The position numbers and the translations under genes were made by a program. Shown one piece after another: positions 6,433 through 53,290 of a stretch of DNA of 64,000 nt. A model generated the notes under the pieces. The model did no database searches and was not told the DNA's origin. It was given only the letters and a program-made list of their open reading frames with translations. Every line of letters begins with the position of its first letter. Positions within the stretch are counted from its first letter, which is position 1. This DNA comes from Myxococcota bacterium (GTDB lineage: Bacteria > Myxococcota_C > UBA6777). The stretch spans positions 1 to 64,000 of the forward strand of contig JAKLKB010000007.1 in assembly GCA_023150835.1 (NCBI GenBank), in the 5' to 3' direction.

Positions 6433-6864
6433 ATGACCATGCAACGCACTTTCTCGATCATCAAACCCGATGCTTTCGCCAAAGGCGCGATCGGCGATAT
6501 CCTCCGTATGATCGAAGCCAGCGGTCTCAAGATCATCGCAACCAAAACCCTCCGTATGACCAAGTCCCAAGCCGAGGGCTTTTACGCCGTCCACAAAGAG
6601 CGTTCCTTCTTTGGTGAGTTGGTGACATTCATGTCCTCCGGTCCTGTCGTGGTTTCCGTCCTCGAAGGCGACAACGCTGTCTTGCGCTACCGCGATCTCA
6701 TGGGTCCCACCGACTCGACCAAGGCCGCCCCCAACACCATCCGAGGCACACACGGCACCAATATCGAACGCAATGCCGTTCATGGCTCCGACTCTCCCGA
6801 AAATGCCGTCATCGAGATCAACTATTTCTTCCCCGAATCCGAACTCCGCGCACTCCTCGGCTAA
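6433..6864 (+). CDS. ndk: Nucleoside diphosphate kinase
   Basis: [15 protein letters not shown]...[13 protein letters not shown] active-site signature. Confidence 0.97.
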
Positions 6865-6879
6865 TTTCAAAAGCAATCC

Positions 6880-6993
6880 TACGATCTCCGAGAGATGTGT
6901 GATCGTAGAACAGTGCGTAGAGGCCCGATTGTTGGGCAGCCACACCTGTCTGCCCCTACATTTTTACGATCACGCAACGGGCGGAGATCGTAT
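6880..6993. repeat. MITE/REP-like element, copy 2 (opposite orientation to copies 1, 4 and 5)
   Basis: tacgatctccgagagatgtgtgatcg...gggcagccacacctgtctgcccctac...cgatcacgcaacgggcggagatcgta. Confidence 0.8.
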
Positions 6994-6994
6994 C

Positions 6995-7108
6995 ATACGA
7001 TCTCCGAGAGATGTGTGATCGTAGGACAGTGCGTAGAGGCCCGATTGTTGGGCAGCCACACCTGTCTTCCCCTACGCTTTGACGATCACACAATGGGCGG
7101 ATCTCGTA
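6995..7108. repeat. MITE/REP-like element, copy 3, head-to-tail with copy 2
   Basis: Near-identical to 6880-6993 and directly adjacent. Confidence 0.8.
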
Positions 7109-8536: not shown

Positions 8537-9038
8537 AACTCGTCGCCTTCGCTACATGGTGTGCTTGTGTGTGCCGCTTGTGGCGTGCAGAGAACCCAAG
8601 CTTGTGCTGATGTGTCCAAAAAACCCGTTTAGTGTAGCGGTACCGAGCGATCTGTCAAGGGATAGCCTTGGGATGGCTCCGCCAAGAAACCTCTCGTGGT
8701 GCGTTGGTTTGCGGCTTGGCATGGTCTGGGATCTCGGGGGGGACTTGACAGAGGGTGTAGAGTAAAAGCGCGGCAGGTTTTCGAGTGAGTGTGTCGCAAA
8801 GATATTGCAATCCCACTTGAAATGGATATAGGCATGGGAAGGGCTTTTCGCAAAAAACAGCCCGTATGCTGTGGCCCGTTATCCTCGAAAAAATGGCACC
8901 GGCTGTCGGTCGTGCAAACTCCCTTGCACGCGAGCAGGACGATATGCTAGGAGTTTCGGGACATTGCTCTAGAGAGATCCGCAAAGCCTCGAATAGACGT
9001 CGTTGTGGATCTCGATCAAACGAGAAGGATGGACAATC

Positions 9039-10559
9039 GTGGCGAAAGAAAAAAATAAGGCAGCAGCGGAGAATGCAGCAGGTGGCGAGCAAAGCGGTGA
9101 GTTCGAACAGGTCGATGATGATGGGGACTTTGCTGCGCCTGACGACGATCTCTTTGGTGATGTCGAAGAAGTAGACGAGCTTGACGACGATATGGACGAG
9201 TTAGACAGCGACGATCGCGATGACTTGGCGATCCCGCGCCGCGCCTCCGAAGAAGTCGGGCGGATCAAAGAATTTCTCAGCAGTATCTCGCGGGTCCGTT
9301 GCGAGCGCTACAACGCAAACCTGACCGTCATCGGTTGTCATCGTAAAAAAACATCCACACCACAACGATTAAAAAACCGCACGTCTCCCGAAGATGATAA
9401 CATCCAAAATCACCCTTGCTTTGGCTGTTTGGGACCGATCATCATCAACTGGCCCGAAGGCTCTCTCCCGATCACCTTAAAAGCACGCGAACGCCGCCCT
9501 GTGATCGTTCATCCCCTACACGAAAACGCCATGCTCTCGCTGCGTCCGCGACGTGAAGAAAGCCAGCCCCCTTCCACAAGTTCCGCTTCGTTTGGAGGCG
9601 AACCCATCAACTCGGCCCCTGTCTACCTCAAGCCCCCCAACGCCCTGCGCAGCACAGGCGCGATCCCCACCGCCACGCTCCCCCGCCCCTCCGCAACACC
9701 CGCAGCCAAAGCCGCCAAAACCGCACGACCCAAGATCGACGCCGAAGTCGAAGAAGATTACGACGCAAGCGATATCTACGAAGATGTCGAAGATGACATG
9801 GATCTCGGCGGGTTGGAAGACGAGGTCGGAGCCGAACCACTCGAAGACGAAGACTTAGGCGCGATCGGCCTCGAAACCGAAGAAGACTCGTCCGATGACT
9901 TTGGCGACGAAAGCTTCGCAGAAGACAACGACGAAGACGCCGTCGTGGCCAAAGCCGCCAGCAAGAAAAAACCCTCGGACATCCGCGCCAAAAAACAGAA
10001 AGACCACGAAAAAGAGAAAGGCAAGGCTCCGAAAAAAGACCACGAAAAAGAAAAAGCGCCCGACATCCGCGCCAAAAAAGAGAAAGACCACGAAAAAGAA
10101 AAAGCGCCCGATATCCGCGCCAAAAAAGAGAAAGACCACGAAAAAGAAAAAGCGCCCGATATCCGCGCCAAAAAAGAAAAAGAGAAGCTTCCTATCCAGA
10201 AAGAAACCATCGACGAGGATGAAGAGGCCGCTTCCTCCAGCGAACATCTGGTAGACGGGGAACATCCTCCCTGCACGAGTTGCGGAAAAGAGTATACCCC
10301 GAAGTATTGGCGTGGTGATGTTTGCAACGCTTGCTATGCCAAACAACTGCGAGAGCGCAAAAAAACCACCGAAGAAAAGCCTCCACGCAAAAAGAAAGAA
10401 GCCCCCACAGAAGTCGAACACCCCCCCTGCACAAGCTGCGGCAAAGAATACACCCCAAAGTATTGGCGTGGCGATGTCTGCAACGCTTGCTATGCCAAAC
10501 AGCTTCGAGAGCGCAAACGCTCGGAAGATACGGGCGCATCTTCGGATAGCGATGTCTGA
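9039..10559 (+). CDS. Acidic/Lys-rich protein with duplicated GATA-like zinc-binding modules
   Basis: GTG start; two copies of HPPCTSCGKEYTPKYWRGDVCNACYAKQLRERK at about 10262-10357 and 10421-10516; further Cys cluster CERYNANLTVIGC...HPCFGC; tandem DIRAKKEKDHEKEKAP. Confidence 0.75.
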   Translation: MAKEKNKAAAENAAGGEQSGEFEQVDDDGDFAAPDDDLFGDVEEVDELDDDMDELDSDDRDDLAIPRRASEEVGRIKEFLSSISRVRCERYNANLTVIGCHRKKTSTPQRLKNRTSPEDDNIQNHPCFGCLGPIIINWPEGSLPITLKARERRPVIVHPLHENAMLSLRPRREESQPPSTSSASFGGEPINSAPVYLKPPNALRSTGAIPTATLPRPSATPAAKAAKTARPKIDAEVEEDYDASDIYEDVEDDMDLGGLEDEVGAEPLEDEDLGAIGLETEEDSSDDFGDESFAEDNDEDAVVAKAASKKKPSDIRAKKQKDHEKEKGKAPKKDHEKEKAPDIRAKKEKDHEKEKAPDIRAKKEKDHEKEKAPDIRAKKEKEKLPIQKETIDEDEEAASSSEHLVDGEHPPCTSCGKEYTPKYWRGDVCNACYAKQLRERKKTTEEKPPRKKKEAPTEVEHPPCTSCGKEYTPKYWRGDVCNACYAKQLRERKRSEDTGASSDSDV

Positions 10560-11001
10560 GCAAAACGGGATGCGATACATGGGGTTGGATGTCGGCTCCA
10601 AGACCATCGGAGTTGCGGTCAGCGATCCAAGCGGCTGGCTGGCACAAGGGATCACAACTATCCAACGCACTACCCTATCCCGTGACTTTTCTGCGTTGTC
10701 CGCTCTCATCCAAGAATACAATGTGGGTTGTATCGTGGTCGGAATGCCCTACACCATGGACGGGTACGTCGGCCCGCAAGCCGTCTGGGTACAAGGATTT
10801 GTGGAGCGCCTACAAGCTCACCTCCCAGAGATGCCGATCAAAACGTGGGACGAGCGCTTGTCTACTTATGCCGCCGAACAGCCGCTGTTGGAGGCAAAGA
10901 TGCAACGCCACAAACGCAAGGCCGTCATCGACAAACTCGCAGCAAGCTTGATCCTGCAAGGCTTTTTGGACGCGGAAGTCGGAACAGAGGCTCCGCACTA
11001 A
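10552..11001 (+). CDS. ruvX: Putative Holliday junction resolvase RuvX/YqgF
   Basis: MGLDVGSKTIGVAVSDPSG; IVVGMPYTMDG; WDERLSTYAAE; overlaps preceding CDS by 8 nt. Confidence 0.93.
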   Translation: MSEQNGMRYMGLDVGSKTIGVAVSDPSGWLAQGITTIQRTTLSRDFSALSALIQEYNVGCIVVGMPYTMDGYVGPQAVWVQGFVERLQAHLPEMPIKTWDERLSTYAAEQPLLEAKMQRHKRKAVIDKLAASLILQGFLDAEVGTEAPH

Positions 11002-11062: not shown

Positions 11063-12556
11063 ATGAACGCGAAAGCGACACAATGGCTGCGGTTGGCCAA
11101 ACGACTGCGCGAACACCCAAGCCGACGTGGCGGCGAGGCTTCGTCGAGATCACCGCAAACGTGGACAAAAGAGTTCTCCGACGCGGAGATCGTGGACTTT
11201 TTGGAGACACGCAAAGCAGCGTTGGCGACGCCTGACGGTTGTTTGCGCCTTGAGGTTGAAGCGGTGTATCAATCCGTCTTAAGCTCTCCCGAAGACGAAG
11301 AAAAGATCTTGGAGCAAGCAGGATTTTTACAAGACGAACGCCGACAACAAGCGCTATACCGCCACGCAGAAGACTACACACGCGAATTAGAACGCCTCGC
11401 CACCCAACAAGAGCGCCTCGTCCAAGCAAACGCACCGACAGGCTTCGGGCGGTTTGTCAAGCTGTTGGTGTTGTTTGTGGCTTTGATCGGGATGAGCGCA
11501 GGAGGTTGGGTGTACCTCCAAGTCCAAGGGATGCGCAGCTTTCTCAAGCGACCAACAGGGGCCAGCGATCTCAAAGGCGAAGTGATCGTCGAGATCCCAC
11601 GCGGCGCAACCGCCGAATTGGCGATCCAAAAACTCAAAGAAGCCCGACTGATCGAAGATGAAGCGCGCTTTCATTTGTTGACTCGGTTCTACCGCGTGTG
11701 GAAGTCTGTCTTGCCCGAACTGAAAGATAGCGGAGAGGTGGTGGTCCGCGCAGGGCGTTACAAGATGAAAAGCGATCTCACCCCCTTGCAGGTCCTCGAA
11801 GAACTGCGCAAAGGCCCACCACGCTTTTCTGTGCGCGTCACCCTGCCCGAAGGATTCAACATCTGGAAGATCGCTGCACGCCTCGAAAGTCGAGAGATCT
11901 GTCGCGCCCAAGACTTTTTGCGCTACGCCCAAAATCCCAGTTATGTCAGCCGCTTGATTGGATGGCAGGCTCCTTCCGCCGAAGGTTACTTGTATCCCGA
12001 CACGTACAAGTTCCACAAAAATAGCGATGCCCAAGAAGTGTTAGCGCGGATGCTTCGACGTTTCCAAGAAGTCTTTCGCAAAAACTTTGCCTCCGCCTTG
12101 CGAGAAAAAGAGTCGATTCGTGGCATGGCATGGGATCCCCATAAGCTCGTCACACTCGCCTCGATCATCGAAAAAGAAACAGGCAAAGGGTTTGAACGCC
12201 CGCAGATCTCGATGGTTTTCCACAATCGCTTGCGTCGAAACTGGAAGCTTGAAACCGATCCCACCGTCATTTATGGACTGATGCCAAACTTCAACGGCAA
12301 TATCACCTCAAAAGACCTGCACAATCCCCATCCCTACAACACTTACAAGCATCGTGGCCTTCCGCCCGGGCCGATCGCAAGCCCGGGATTTGACGCGATC
12401 CGTTCAGCGTTGTTTCCGCGTGCCAAGCGCACTTGCATTATCTTCTTTGTTTCCAAAAACGACGGAACCCACGTCTTTTCCTGCACCAAGCAAGAACACG
12501 AACGATGGGTTGATATCTACCAACGCAAGATCCGCCGCCCCCCTCCAAGAGAATAG
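11063..12556 (+). CDS. mltG: Endolytic transglycosylase MltG (YceG) with long N-terminal cytosolic extension
   Basis: LVTLASIIEKETGK, PQISMVFHNRL, LETDPTVIYGL, YNTYKHRGLPPGPIASPG. Confidence 0.95.
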   Translation: MNAKATQWLRLAKRLREHPSRRGGEASSRSPQTWTKEFSDAEIVDFLETRKAALATPDGCLRLEVEAVYQSVLSSPEDEEKILEQAGFLQDERRQQALYRHAEDYTRELERLATQQERLVQANAPTGFGRFVKLLVLFVALIGMSAGGWVYLQVQGMRSFLKRPTGASDLKGEVIVEIPRGATAELAIQKLKEARLIEDEARFHLLTRFYRVWKSVLPELKDSGEVVVRAGRYKMKSDLTPLQVLEELRKGPPRFSVRVTLPEGFNIWKIAARLESREICRAQDFLRYAQNPSYVSRLIGWQAPSAEGYLYPDTYKFHKNSDAQEVLARMLRRFQEVFRKNFASALREKESIRGMAWDPHKLVTLASIIEKETGKGFERPQISMVFHNRLRRNWKLETDPTVIYGLMPNFNGNITSKDLHNPHPYNTYKHRGLPPGPIASPGFDAIRSALFPRAKRTCIIFFVSKNDGTHVFSCTKQEHERWVDIYQRKIRRPPPRE

Positions 12557-12820: not shown

Positions 12821-13870
12821 ATGACGCGATCTCGATGGAGTCTGGTGTTGTGGCTGGTTGTTGTGGGAATGGGCTTGGCAGGGCGGGCCAGCGCGGATGA
12901 TCTGGCAGGGTTTGAAGCCCGCCGCCTACCGAACGCAACGTTGAAGGTGTTGCCCAACGGGACAGATGAAAAAGCAGAAGCAACGCTTGTTCCGATGGCT
13001 TCGCTGTTTGGGAAGCCGATCGCCGTCTTGTATTGGAAAGTGGGCGATGCCAAGGCCGAAACAGAACTCAAAGCTTTTCAAGCCTTGCAGCATCTGCCCA
13101 AACTCAAGGATAAACTGCATTTTTTGACCGCCGTAAAAGCGTCTTCGGCTTCAGAAGAGCAAGCCGCGATCAAACGCGCACGAGAATTAAAGCTGTCGGT
13201 GCGGCTGGTGTTGGATCGCGATCAGATCGGGCCTTACCTCGAAGCCTTTTACCAATTCCCCCGCTACGGCTTGATCGACAAAACAGGCGCGGTCAAAGTC
13301 TGGCATTGTGCGCATCTTGCCGAAGTCGTCGGCGCAGGGATGACCTACCTCCAAGCCCTCTACGTTGCGGCAGAAGGCAAAGATATCCCAACCATGCGCG
13401 GCACAACACAGATGAGCAACTCCCACCAACTCATCGGAAAACCCTTTCCTGATGTTGGTTTGGATGGCGTCGATCTCAAGCCCCGAACGCTCAAGACGTA
13501 CTTCACGCCCGGACGTCCTTTGTTGATCGCCTTTTGGTCAGCCACATGCGCGCATTGTCAACGCTTGATCCCCGCTCTGGCCAAGTACTGGAACCTGCGT
13601 CGCGGCAACATCGATCTGCTGACCATCACACGCGCCCCCTCCCAAGAACTCCGCGAGATGATCGTCAAACAACAAAAAGAAAAAGGCATCGAATGGCCCG
13701 TCGCTTACGCTCCTGAAAACGCAACATTAAGCTTCTTCAAGATCGTCAAAGTCCCCACCGTCTTTTTGATCGATCAAAAAGGCGTCTTCCGCTACGTCTG
13801 GATCCAGCCCGAAGATGCTTGGATCGACAAAGTCATCGAAACTTCCTTCGCACGCTTCAGTATCTTTTAA
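12821..13870 (+). CDS. Secreted thioredoxin-like (TlpA/redoxin family) protein
   Basis: Signal peptide LVLWLVVVGMGLAGRASA; AFWSATCAHCQRLIPALAKYWN (CxxC) and KVPTVFLIDQKGVFRYVW. Confidence 0.85.
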   Translation: MTRSRWSLVLWLVVVGMGLAGRASADDLAGFEARRLPNATLKVLPNGTDEKAEATLVPMASLFGKPIAVLYWKVGDAKAETELKAFQALQHLPKLKDKLHFLTAVKASSASEEQAAIKRARELKLSVRLVLDRDQIGPYLEAFYQFPRYGLIDKTGAVKVWHCAHLAEVVGAGMTYLQALYVAAEGKDIPTMRGTTQMSNSHQLIGKPFPDVGLDGVDLKPRTLKTYFTPGRPLLIAFWSATCAHCQRLIPALAKYWNLRRGNIDLLTITRAPSQELREMIVKQQKEKGIEWPVAYAPENATLSFFKIVKVPTVFLIDQKGVFRYVWIQPEDAWIDKVIETSFARFSIF

Positions 13871-13871
13871 C

Positions 13872-14082
13872 CCCCTCTGCTTCGGCCTCTTTCAAACCCT
13901 CTCTGCTTCAGCCTCTTTCAAACCCTCTCTGCTTCGGCCTCTTTCAAACTCCCTCTCCGCTTCAGCCTCTTTCAAAATCCCTCTGCTTCGGCCTCTTTCA
14001 AAATCCCTCTGCTTCGCCTTCTTTTCATCCTCTCCGCTTCGGCCTCTTTTCATCCTCTCCGCTTCGGCCTCTTTCAAACCCC
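13872..14082. repeat. Intergenic tandem repeat, ~25-27 bp unit, ~8 copies
   Basis: Units such as ccctctgcttcggcctctttcaaac / cctctccgcttcggcctcttttcat between two plus-strand CDSs. Confidence 0.9.
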
Positions 14083-29789: not shown

Positions 29790-31982
29790 ATGAAGATCGT
29801 ATTCGCGACTAGCTTGGTCGGAAATGACCGTTTGATGCGCGCTGAAGCGCTACTCCGCTTTTGCAAAGAACAAGGACACGAAGTCTTTCTCGTCACGCGC
29901 AATCGTTTCGCCGACGCATGGACACCCTCTATCCTTGAAACCTTTCAGATCGCCATCCCTCGACACTGCCCCCCCGAAGAGATGGCCGCAATGACCCTTG
30001 AAAAAAACCGCGCACTGCTCGGAAGAATGGACTATTTTCGCCCGCTGTGCGCGATCATCGACGGCGAAGACTTTGTAGGAAAAGTCGCACAACGACTGAA
30101 CATCCCGACTGTCTGCATCGATCCCAAACACGCTTTTGAAACCACCCGCCTCAGCATCACACTCCCTCCCTTTGCCCTCGAACAACTCCGCTCCTTGCGC
30201 GAAGAACTCCGTCAACGCAGCTTTGAACCCCGCTGGTTTCTCTTGCCTGTCTTTTTCGATGCCCTACCGATCCGCCCCGAAGTGTTGCTTTGTCAGCCGA
30301 TATCCACCTTCACCGATACCCCAAACACCGACACTTCTGACGAGGGGTGGCTGCTTTTGGTCGGATGGCAAGGCGTTGAAGAAGATGTCCGCCCTTTCCT
30401 TGAGCAGCAGATCCGCGTCCGTGTCCACTACCCTGTCCGCCTCGAAAGACCTCGCGAGATCAAACAAGAAGAATCCCTTGATGGCGAAGGAGCCGCTATG
30501 CGCAGACGGCGCTCAGCCCCCCTCTCCCGCTCTCCCGAAGAAGAAGCCGCTGCCGCACGCGCCATGCTCCCCAACTCCGATGCCTATGTTTCTTATTCCG
30601 TCGCCAACGCCGAAGCTTGGCAACAAGATCTCCCCCGCGCCAAAGCCGTGATCCTGCAAGGCGATGCTTCTCAACTTGCCGATGCCATCGCTCTACAAAA
30701 ACCCACCCTCGTCATCCCACAAAAAGATCACTTCGAACAATGGGTTTGCGGCCAATACATCGAAAAAATGGGCGTCGGTGAAACACACACCAAACTCAAT
30801 CGCACCGCCCTCGACGGCTTCCTCGAACGGCTCGACCGCTACAAAGACAAATTACATCAACTCCCCCCAAGCAAATCTCCCAAGATCACCCACGCCCTCC
30901 AAGAGATCTTGACCACCCTCCAATCCGAAGCCACCGCACAACCCCGCCAATCCGAACGCTTCCCCTCTTCGCAACGAAACCGACCCACAACCCGAACCAA
31001 CACATCCCCCACCACACACACAGACGGCTCCCCACCAGAACGCCGCACACCTCGACAAGACGGCGATTCACCGAAACCTCGGACCTTCCGCCAAGATGGC
31101 GATGCCCCGAGACCTCGGACCTTCCGCCAAGATGGTGATGCTCCAAGACCTCGGACCTTCCGCCAAGATGGTGATGCTCCAAGACCTCGTTCTCCCCGCC
31201 CTGATGGTGATGCTCCGAGACCTCGGACCTTCCGCCAAGATGGTGATGCTCCAAGACCTCGGACCTTCCGCCAAGATGGTGATGCTCCGAGACCTCGGAC
31301 CTTCCGCCAAGATGGTGATGCTCCGAGACCTCGGACCTTCCGACAAGATGGTGATGCTCCGAGACCTCGGACCTTCCGACAAGATGGTGATGCTCCAAGA
31401 CCTCGTTTCTCCAATAGAGAGAACGCCCCACGCCCACGGGCTGAGGAAGGGCGGCGCCCCGCATCTTCGGAACGCGGAGAACGCGCAGGCTCCATCGAGG
31501 TGTGGCGTCCTCCCTCGAAACAAGCCGACGAAACGCATTCCACAAACCAACCCCAGACAGCAGGTGGCGAACGGCTGCCACGCCGCAAAAACACCGAAGG
31601 TTCGGGCGAACAAAAGCCTTGGCGCAAAAACACCGAAGGTTCGAGCGAACAAAAGCCTTGGCGCAAAAACACCGAAGGTTCGAGCGAACAAAAGCCTTGG
31701 CGCAAAAACACCGAAGGTTCGGGCGAACAAAAGCCTTGGCGCAAAAACACCGAAGGTTCGGGCGAACAAAAGCCTTGGCGTAAAAACACCGAAGGTTCGG
31801 GCGAACAAAAGCCTTGGCGTAAAAACATCGAAGGTTCGGGTGAACGAAAGCCTTGGCGTAAAAACACCGAAGGTTCGGGTGAACGAAAGCCTTGGCGTAA
31901 AAACACCGAACCAAAAGAAACAAGCGAACGAGGAGCACCCAAACCCAAACCTCCGAAACGTACCCTCCCGCGAGACGAATAG
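29790..31982 (+). CDS. GT-B glycosyltransferase-like protein with C-terminal disordered repeat arrays
   Basis: MKIVFATSLVGNDRLMRAEALLRFCKEQGHEVFLVTR N-term; QKPTLVIPQKDHFEQWVCGQYIEKMGVG; two C-terminal tandem arrays. Confidence 0.7.
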   Translation: MKIVFATSLVGNDRLMRAEALLRFCKEQGHEVFLVTRNRFADAWTPSILETFQIAIPRHCPPEEMAAMTLEKNRALLGRMDYFRPLCAIIDGEDFVGKVAQRLNIPTVCIDPKHAFETTRLSITLPPFALEQLRSLREELRQRSFEPRWFLLPVFFDALPIRPEVLLCQPISTFTDTPNTDTSDEGWLLLVGWQGVEEDVRPFLEQQIRVRVHYPVRLERPREIKQEESLDGEGAAMRRRRSAPLSRSPEEEAAAARAMLPNSDAYVSYSVANAEAWQQDLPRAKAVILQGDASQLADAIALQKPTLVIPQKDHFEQWVCGQYIEKMGVGETHTKLNRTALDGFLERLDRYKDKLHQLPPSKSPKITHALQEILTTLQSEATAQPRQSERFPSSQRNRPTTRTNTSPTTHTDGSPPERRTPRQDGDSPKPRTFRQDGDAPRPRTFRQDGDAPRPRTFRQDGDAPRPRSPRPDGDAPRPRTFRQDGDAPRPRTFRQDGDAPRPRTFRQDGDAPRPRTFRQDGDAPRPRTFRQDGDAPRPRFSNRENAPRPRAEEGRRPASSERGERAGSIEVWRPPSKQADETHSTNQPQTAGGERLPRRKNTEGSGEQKPWRKNTEGSSEQKPWRKNTEGSSEQKPWRKNTEGSGEQKPWRKNTEGSGEQKPWRKNTEGSGEQKPWRKNIEGSGERKPWRKNTEGSGERKPWRKNTEPKETSERGAPKPKPPKRTLPRDE
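31045..31416 (+). repeat. In-frame tandem repeat, 36-bp unit (RTFRQDGDAPRP), ~10 copies
   Basis: cctcggaccttccgccaagatggtgatgctccaaga repeated. Confidence 0.95.
31587..31905 (+). repeat. In-frame tandem repeat, 39-bp unit (KNTEGSGEQKPWR), ~8 copies
   Basis: aaaaacaccgaaggttcgggcgaacaaaagccttggcgc repeated. Confidence 0.95.
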
Positions 31983-42892: not shown

Positions 42893-45800
42893 ATGGCCCA
42901 AGACCGCATTGTGATACGCGGCGCACGCGAACACAACCTCAAAAACATTGACGTGGATATCCCACGCGATCAACTGGTCGTGATCACGGGGCTGAGTGGT
43001 AGCGGCAAAAGCTCACTCGCCTTTGACACGATCTACGCGGAAGGACAACGGCGCTACGTCGAGTCGTTGTCTGCTTACGCACGCCAATTCCTTCCGCAGA
43101 TGAACAAGCCCGATGTCGATCTGATCGAAGGGCTGAGTCCAGCGATCTCGATCGAACAAAAGACGACGCACCGAAACCCCCGTTCTACGGTCGGAACCGT
43201 CACGGAGATCTACGATTATCTGCGCCTATTGTACGCACGCATCGGCGTTCCGCATTGCTTTCGGACAGGACTCCCGATCCAAGGCCAAACCACCGAGCAG
43301 ATGGTGGATCGGCTGATCGCGCTCGAAGAAGGTACGCGGATCGTGGTGCTTGCACCTGTTGTGCGCGGTCGCAAGGGCGAATACCGCAAAGAACTCGATC
43401 AATTTCGCCGAGATGGTTTTGTGCGCGTGCGGATCGATGGCAAAACATTCGAGCTATCGGACGAGATCGAGATCGACAAAAACAAAAAGCACGATATCGA
43501 TATCTACATCGACCGCCTCTCGATCCGCGAAGGTGTGCGCAGCCGCCTCGCAGACTCGATCGAAACAGCCCTAAAACTCGGCGAAGGCGTCCTCAAGATC
43601 CTATTTCAAGATGAAAGCGAGTGGCTGTTGAGCCAACACCACGCTTGCATGATGTGCGGGATGTCGTTTCCCGAGATCACCCCACAGATGTTTTCGTTCA
43701 ATTCTCCACAAGGAGCCTGCCCAACCTGCGATGGCATCGGCTTTGAGTCCTACATCGATCCCGACCTTGTGATCCCGAACCCCCGCCTTTCGATCGCCCA
43801 AGGAGCGATCGCGATCTATGGACGCAGCAAAGACTCTCGCATGGGCCAAGTGATCGAAGATATCTGCAAAGCCTACGGCGGCGATATCGAACTTCCCTTC
43901 GAGGAACTTGACGAAGATATCCGCAATCTTTTGCTGCACGGAAGCGGAAACAACAAGCCCAAACGCGGGCGAGGCCGAAGCGCCCCAAGCACCCGATGGT
44001 TCGAGGGGATCATCCCGATGCTTGAGCGTACCCTCCGAGAATCGGACTCCGAAGAGCGCAAAGAAGGCATCGAACCTTATACCCGACAACGGCCCTGTGA
44101 GACCTGCAAAGGAAACCGACTGCGCAAAGAAAGCATGCACATCCTTGTCGGCAAAAAAGATATCGCCGCGATCACCCAACTCGCGATCCGCGAAGCACTC
44201 GACTTTTTCGACCACCTCCAACTCTCCACCCGCGACGAAGAGATCGCCCGCCGCATCCTCAAAGAGATCCGCGAACGCTTGCGTTTTCTCGTCGATGTCG
44301 GCCTTGACTACCTTTCCCTCGCACGCACCGCAGGCACACTCTCGGGCGGCGAAGCCCAGCGCATCCGCCTCGCAACGCAGATCGGTTCTTCTCTGACAGG
44401 CGTGTTGTACGTCCTCGACGAGCCTTCGATCGGCCTCCATCCACGCGACAACAACCGCCTGATCCGCACGCTGACCCATCTACGCGATCTCGGAAATACG
44501 GTGCTGGTCGTCGAACACGACGAAGAGACCATGCGTTACGCCGATCACTTGATCGATATGGGTCCGGGCGCAGGAGTTCATGGTGGTGCGATCATCGCCC
44601 AAGGCCCCGTTGCATCCGTGATCAACGACCCCAACAGCCTTACAGGGCAATACCTTTCGGGAGCCCGCAGTATCGAGATCCCAACCAAACGAAGGAATGG
44701 CTCAGGTCGGATGCTCTCGATACGCGGCGCTTTTCATAACAACCTCAAGCAACTCAACGTCGATCTCCCCCTTGGGATGCTGATCTGCGTCACAGGCGTA
44801 TCGGGATCTGGAAAGTCCAGCCTAATCATCGACACCCTTTATCGCTACACCGCGCTCCATCTTCACGGCTCACGTGGCCGCCTCGGTGAAGTCGAGTCCA
44901 TCGAAGGACTCGAACACATCGACAAAGTCATCAACATCGATCAATCCCCCATCGGTCGTACTCCGCGCTCCAACCCCGCCACCTACGTCGATCTCTTTGG
45001 GCCGATCCGCCAGCTCTTTACGCAGCTTCCCGAGTCCAAGGTGCGCGGCTACGCCGCAGGTCGTTTCTCCTTTAACGTCCCGGGTGGGCGATGCGAATCC
45101 TGCGAAGGGGCGGGCGTGATCCGTATCGAGATGCACTTTCTCCCCGATGTCTTCGTCACTTGCGAAGCCTGCCGAGGACAACGCTTCAACCGCGAAACAC
45201 TCGATGTCAAATACAAAGGCAAGCATATCTCCGAAGTCCTCGACATGAGCGTCGAAGAGGCCCTCGAATTTTTCAACGCACAACCCCCGATACGCCGCCG
45301 CCTTGAAACACTCCATGACGTCGGGCTCGACTACATCAAACTCGGTCAAGCCGCCACCACGCTTTCCGGCGGCGAAGCCCAACGCATCAAACTCTCCAAA
45401 GAACTTTCCCGCCGCTCCACAGGCAATACCCTTTACATCCTCGACGAACCCACTACGGGACTCCACTTTGAGGATATCAAGCGCCTGCTCACCGTCCTCC
45501 ATCGCCTCGTAGACAACGGCAATACCGTGATCGTCATTGAGCATCAACTTGATGTGATCAAGACAGCTGACTGGATCATCGATATCGGACCCGAAGGCGG
45601 CGCACGCGGCGGTGAACTCGTCGCTGCCGGAACCCCCGACACGATCGCACAACACCCCTCCAGTCACACAGGCCGCTTTCTCAAAGACCTTCTCCGTCCC
45701 TCTACCACCACCACCAACGGCACGCACAAACCACCTGACCATGCCTCCTCCACCCCAACAAACATCACCTTGATAAACAACAACGCGGCATCCACCGACA

Positions 45801-46066
45801 AGCTCAACGCTCTTTCCGACAAGATCGCCACATCCACCGACAAGATCGCCACGTCCACCGACAAGATCGCCACGTCCACCGACAAGATCACCACGTCCAC
45901 CGACAAGATCGCCACGTCCACCGACAAGATCACCACGTCCACCGACAAGATCGCCACTTCCACCGAAAAGATCACCGCATCCACCGAGGAAGCCCCCACC
46001 GTTGCAACCCTCCCGACAGAAGCGATGGCTCCAAAACGCGCACCACGAAAAAGAAAGGCGATCTGA
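42893..46066 (+). CDS. uvrA: Excinuclease ABC subunit A with C-terminal repeat tail
   Basis: [60 protein letters not shown]; zinc-finger CMMCG..; [11 protein letters not shown] twice; tail (DKIATST)n. Confidence 0.97.
45818..45985 (+). repeat. 21-bp in-frame tandem repeat (DKIATST), ~8 copies, at the UvrA C-terminus
   Basis: gacaagatcgccacgtccacc repeated. Confidence 0.95.
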
Positions 46067-53077: not shown

Positions 53078-53127
53078 CTTATCAGAATCCTTCACCAAGA
53101 AAGCAAGAAAACTATGCTCACAACGTC

Positions 53128-53290
53128 CGCTCTCATCGCACCCACAACATCCGCTCTCATCGCCGCCACAATGTCCGCTCTCATCGCACCCACAACATCC
53201 GCTCTCATCGCACCCACAACATCCGCTCTCATCGCACCCACAACATCCGCTCTCATCGCACCCACAACATCCGCTCTCATCGCACCTGCA
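53128..53290. repeat. Intergenic 24-bp tandem repeat, ~7 copies
   Basis: cgctctcatcgcacccacaacatc repeated; between stop of 53306..55351 and start of 51017..53077. Confidence 0.95.

Follow-up and report, generated by a model that had tools for sequence, protein, structure and literature searches.

Among the closest described counterparts of the protein considered here are the GATA zinc fingers, in which two cysteine pairs are spaced as CX2CX17-20CX2C, with a basic region after them (PMC8153473, PMC5693882). The wider fold group is that of the treble clefs, which are defined by the order of knuckle, hairpin and helix, with a CPxCG-like zinc knuckle supplying one half of the metal site and with ligands 3 and 4 located at the N-terminus of the helix (PMC4999995). 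Among the titles listed, none pointed to a paper on bacterial GATA-like fingers.

The window, by which we mean the whole stretch of 64,000 nucleotides that was analysed, belongs to a genome of 7.56 Mb in 239 contigs, and the sample of its phylum consists of five genomes (G000 to G004). It encodes a protein that ends in two four-cysteine fingers. These share with the GATA family (PF00320, including the tandem N and C fingers of vertebrates) a predicted place in the treble-clef fold group, a helix at the second cysteine pair, a basic tail, the arrangement of two fingers joined by a short charged linker and, in the genus g1 only, the residues CxxC...TPxxWR...CNAC. They differ from it in having a hairpin that is shorter by about five residues, with a spacing of x13 (or x16) instead of x17-20.

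Layout of the gene and its product

The features of the locus are collected in Table 1. The GTG codon at 9039 is most likely the start of the gene; a Shine-Dalgarno-like AGAAGGA lies 5' of it at 9023-9029, and the aligned orthologues have start sites at or adjoining that of the window protein. The initial annotation had described the surroundings of the fingers as charged and repeat-rich, which is an accurate account of the protein. The 48-bp repeat region is probably a disordered linker and is not kept in the orthologues, and the linker between the two fingers is probably disordered as well.

Table 1. Coordinates of the tandem-finger gene, its segments and the genes downstream
Feature	Coordinates	Strand	Description
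Tandem-finger gene	9039..10559	+	506 aa; GTG start, TGA stop at 10557-10559; basis ORF
Acidic N-terminal region	9039..9254	+	Net charge between -20 and -29 ahead of RCERYNAN (4 full-length orthologues)
N-terminal Cys domain	9255..9515	+	RCERYNANLT-x3-C...NHPCFGC; four Cys, C-x11-C-x26-C-x2-C
48-bp repeat	10035..10183	+	3.1 copies (Tandem Repeats Finder); 16-aa mixed-charge unit, KDHEKEKAPDIRAKKE-like
Finger 1	10263..10361	+	HPPCTSCGKEYTPKYWRGDVCNACYAKQLRERK; predicted treble clef
Inter-finger linker	10362..10418	+	Charged, Lys-rich; low pLDDT, variable among orthologues
Finger 2	10419..10517	+	Protein identical to finger 1 (HPPCTSCGKEYTPKYWRGDVCNACYAKQLRERK)
ruvX	10552..11001	+	PF03652, E 1.2e-43; 8-nt overlap (10552-10559) with the finger gene
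mltG (YceG)	11063..12556	+	PF02618, E 8.1e-80

The finger modules are located at the C-terminus of the protein, comprise 33-34 residues each and have the form CxxC-x13-CxxC, so that the 13-residue loop reported at first is present in the window protein as described. The basic residues said to follow the finger are likewise found, as RERKK, RQKKK or RKRKK placed directly after it in the orthologues. Charge is distributed unevenly along the chain: the full-length members are acidic as a whole (net -11 to -34), and the fingers are basic (net +5 to +7), with conserved arginine or lysine in their helices; most orthologues also have linkers and tails rich in lysine. In the window species neither the region before the fingers (net -5) nor the region between them (net 0) is basic.

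The N-terminal cysteine domain, which the initial annotation did not mention, is 52-53% identical between genera, with all four cysteines invariant. It corresponds to no family in Pfam or NCBIfam, and the AlphaFold model of it is of low confidence (pLDDT 44) and uninformative. Beyond the family, a comparison of this domain with 386 genomes produced only chance-like matches, for example to what we take, by eye, to be HD-GYP-type proteins. The linker between this domain and the fingers is charged and poorly conserved. In the G002 orthologue (L010, 1-772) it is formed by a long Lys-rich repeat of KKATT type, as against the mixed-charge repeats of the window protein; such a Lys-rich repeat resembles the tails of bacterial histone-H1-like proteins.

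Predicted fold and the GATA resemblance

AlphaFold2, run on the tandem region with an alignment of five rows, produced a model with a mean pLDDT of 75.6 and with values of 80-89 in the finger cores. In each finger the model has a short hairpin (YW / DV, in the order EE--EE) followed by a helix that starts at the residue after the third cysteine; the two helices (residues 25-40 and 77-97) begin at the CNAC cysteine. The hairpin-then-helix order of the treble clef is thus present in both fingers by prediction, and the CxxCG knuckle is invariant in all finger copies. Each finger is accordingly predicted to be a treble clef, and the unrelated zinc ribbon which had been named as the outcome that would speak against the proposal does not appear in the model.

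A Foldseek search of the PDB with the tandem fingers returned mostly treble-clef or related zinc domains, the matches having been classed as a set by their names and by general knowledge. The matches include GATA3, the PacI HNH domain, HHARI, LIM domains (PINCH, LMO2), RING, FYVE, uS14, TraR/DksA and a nuclear receptor, with several ribosomal structures among them; none is significant (best E 0.34). HHARI superposes at 0.8 A over the finger and PacI (3ldy) at 1.3 A over 39 columns, to which may be added a weak PHROG match to the HNH endonuclease family phrog_1271 (E 5.8e-4). The catalytic residues of HNH nucleases are not seen in the fingers, however, and the Foldseek E-value is not significant. 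The uS14 ribosomal zinc finger (PF00253) resembles the fingers in being a short treble clef of nearly equal spacing with a CxxC[FL/Y] helix start, but its hhalign alignment covers the knuckle only, with a score of 15.5 that 15 of 60 shuffles reach. The DksA/TraR finger (PF01258) is likewise bacterial and belongs to the same broad class of CxxC-CxxC fingers, but has a spacing of x16-17 and a profile similarity confined to the knuckle. Kinship with uS14 and with DksA was rejected, since hhalign reaches only the CxxCG knuckle and shuffles match the scores. The best Pfam matches, to DUF7564 (PF24445) and other small four-cysteine families, are weak (E 0.002-0.03) and fall below the curated cut-offs.

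The initial annotation had likened the fingers to those of GATA proteins and had proposed a comparison with AlphaFold and with the Pfam family. What stands of this likeness is the predicted fold group together with a profile similarity above that of shuffled columns; membership of the GATA family does not stand. A profile built from six vertebrate GATA fingers only, which were entered by hand and checked against sequences from the PDB, scores 22.8 with the fingers, compared to 11.2 +/- 2.1 for column shuffles that preserve the cysteines, none of the 60 being as high. The g1 copies score 26 on it, and 41 other bacterial four-cysteine fingers have a mean of 12.5 and a maximum of 21.5; the g1 copies and some others lie above nearly all of these fingers, and some orthologues, at 16.6-19.0, fall within their range. 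Because this comparison was chosen after the resemblance had been seen, it is biased towards GATA.

That the fingers are true members of the GATA family, inherited or acquired from a eukaryote and binding a GATA-like site, is very improbable. The two profile results just given favour this reading, as does the first rank of the GATA3 tandem domain in Foldseek, which is not significant. Against it, in addition to the orthologues whose scores are unexceptional, the spacing is x13 in G000, G001 and G003 and x16 in G002 and G004, outside the range of 17-20, and the fingers reach only 7.5-15 bits with the Pfam model, for which the gathering cut-off is 26.8. Other stretches of the genome score higher: when the GATA model was run over the whole genome, the matches listed included unrelated stretches and not the fingers. 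The T(P)xW(R) and CNAC signature itself is not conserved: W, R and N are kept, but g2 has A or E in place of T, and every orthologue outside g1 reads CNPC where g1 reads CNAC. GATA homology was rejected on the spacing, the score and the non-conservation of T and A, and the resemblance is most simply accounted for by convergence within one fold group.

Distribution and matched evolution of the two fingers

Each of the five genomes in the phylum sample encodes a finger protein with exactly two fingers, and the survey of homologues that had been suggested at first found no comparable match elsewhere. About 380 other genomes contain nothing comparable to the tandem-finger protein; a tblastn search of phages and plasmids returned no match to it, and viral contigs yielded no confirmed relative of the finger or of the N-terminal cysteine domain. 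In the contigs of 84,980 species genomes, searched at a sensitivity suited to close relatives, a single locus was found, in the sister genome. Within the reach of these searches, the protein is restricted to a single bacterial lineage that is small and poorly known. The sole somewhat significant match outside it (E 5.6e-5) is to a protein (L026, 1135-1596) that joins a single CxxCG...CNECY finger to a heavy-metal-binding YbjQ domain and is encoded by the only genome of its phylum in the sample. This and the other weak finger matches, to proteins which we took by eye to be TPR-like and DUF721-like, were set aside as generic four-cysteine fingers that are not clear relatives.

The near-identical motif reported at first does occur twice, in frame, with its coordinates shifted by one base from those originally given. 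Over 34 codons (EHPPC...RERK) the two copies are 100% identical in protein and differ at 12 nucleotides, all 12 of which are synonymous, with 7 of the 14 fourfold sites changed. Because every difference is synonymous, the DNA copies have diverged with the protein held fixed; and because the pair of fingers is seen again in each of the five genomes, the duplication is neither a recent duplication of DNA nor a product of chance.

Within the five genomes the copies differ from each other by 0, 0, 3, 3 and 4 residues, and between genera by 7-11, with the four cysteines of each finger invariant throughout. In a protein tree the copies group by genome (support 0.87-0.96), and in genus g2 an identical 3-residue insertion is present in both fingers. 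By these sequence comparisons the pair is subject to concerted evolution, and since the copies cluster by genome and share the g2 insertion, both fingers are constrained alike. At synonymous sites, the two g1 species differ by 7 between their first copies and by 6 between their second, whereas the two copies inside each g1 genome are 12 and 8 differences apart. Like copies are closer across species, and the homogenization seen between genera is therefore old or selective, with the copies kept separately since. Such matched evolution suggests that the two fingers have the same ligand.

Candidate functions and genomic setting

The reading to which we would assign about an even chance is that the protein consists of lineage-specific, compact treble clefs in tandem on a charged, disordered protein, and that it probably binds nucleic acid. 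In each finger the two cysteines of the CxxCG knuckle and the two at the start of the basic helix would together hold one zinc, with a very short hairpin (YW-RG-DV) joining knuckle to helix. The two C-terminal fingers would be connected by a flexible charged linker, and their basic helices and Lys-rich tails, being alike in both, would probably contact nucleic acid mostly without sequence specificity, so that the fingers would most likely grip it weakly and together. The acidic N-terminus and the second cysteine domain would then tune this binding or connect it. In favour of this reading stand the synonymous-only divergence of the identical copies, the two-finger orthologues with their clustering by genome and shared g2 insertion, the AlphaFold model, the kinds of domain matched in Foldseek, the basic fingers and the weak HNH match in PHROG. 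Against it, no Foldseek match is significant, the alignment has five rows, the regions before and between the fingers carry no basic charge in the window species, and the operon is not conserved as such. A bolder reading, which we regard as rather unlikely, is that of a phylum-specific nucleoid- or RNA-associated protein in which a GATA-like pair of DNA-binding fingers evolved independently in bacteria; the short treble clef would then have arisen by convergence, with concerted evolution preserving the likeness of the two fingers.

The main rival to nucleic-acid binding, possible but on the unlikely side, is a protein-protein scaffold in which fingers of LIM or RBR type bind a partner, perhaps the mltG product or the PP2C-cNMP product, with no role for nucleic acid. 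It draws on the presence of LIM domains and HHARI among the best geometric matches, on the PINCH LIM domain as the top PDB sequence match (E 0.15), on the acidity of the full-length proteins and on the conserved neighbouring genes, though conserved neighbours do not demonstrate interaction, and the basic fingers with their conserved helix arginines and lysines speak against it. It is quite improbable that the cysteine pairs form a redox switch, an Fe-S site or a metal store instead of structural zinc sites. The identity of the metal cannot be read from sequence, and the occurrence of two cysteine domains in one protein fits such a role; a CxxCG knuckle combined with a CxxC at the helix start is, however, the classical treble-clef structural zinc site (PMC4999995). 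An artefact, whether a mis-called frame or a duplication in assembly, might be suspected in so repeat-rich a region, but has a negligible probability: four other genomes share the two-finger frame with synonymous divergence, and the orthologues have already refuted it.

Should DNA or RNA prove to be the ligand of the fingers, bacteria would have their own equivalent of the tandem GATA architecture, built with a shorter hairpin, which would show how easily treble clefs converge on the GATA signature. If they bind protein instead, the family would be one more lineage-specific zinc-finger scaffold, of modest interest. The matched evolution of the fingers offers a direct handle: the same ligand is expected for both.

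The gene had been described as lying upstream of ruvX and overlapping it, which is true in the window, but the overlap is found only in genus g1. The ruvX model has no match in G002, G003 or G004, which are large MAGs that are 86-94% complete; it finds the gene in 10 of 14 control genomes, 3 of the 14 being archaea or otherwise without a match. Outside these genomes ruvX is widespread among bacteria. In each of the five genomes the finger gene has an mltG-like ORF on its downstream side, directly next to it in g2, after ruvX in g1 and after an opposite-strand DUF2752 ORF in G003, and a protein combining PP2C and cNMP-binding domains lies upstream on the opposite strand wherever the contig extends that far. 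For PP2C and YceG, Pfam confirms the assignment in the window, and sequence similarity was the basis in the other genomes. In G002 the sequence between the finger gene and mltG contains a terminator-like hairpin followed by a T run, so that co-transcription of the two genes is not assured. An operon is not conserved as such.

Elsewhere in the window, minisatellites occur at 13869-14081, 31056-31405, 31584-31910, 45789-45987 and 53119-53286. Many of their periods are divisible by 3 (36, 39, 42/21, 24), and one is of 26/54/80 bp; they suggest that the host genome encodes unusually repeat-rich proteins. At 6876-7108, a 116-bp unit is present in two head-to-tail copies (91% matches) just 3' of the ORF at 6433-6864, which we take, by eye, to be nucleoside-diphosphate-kinase-like.
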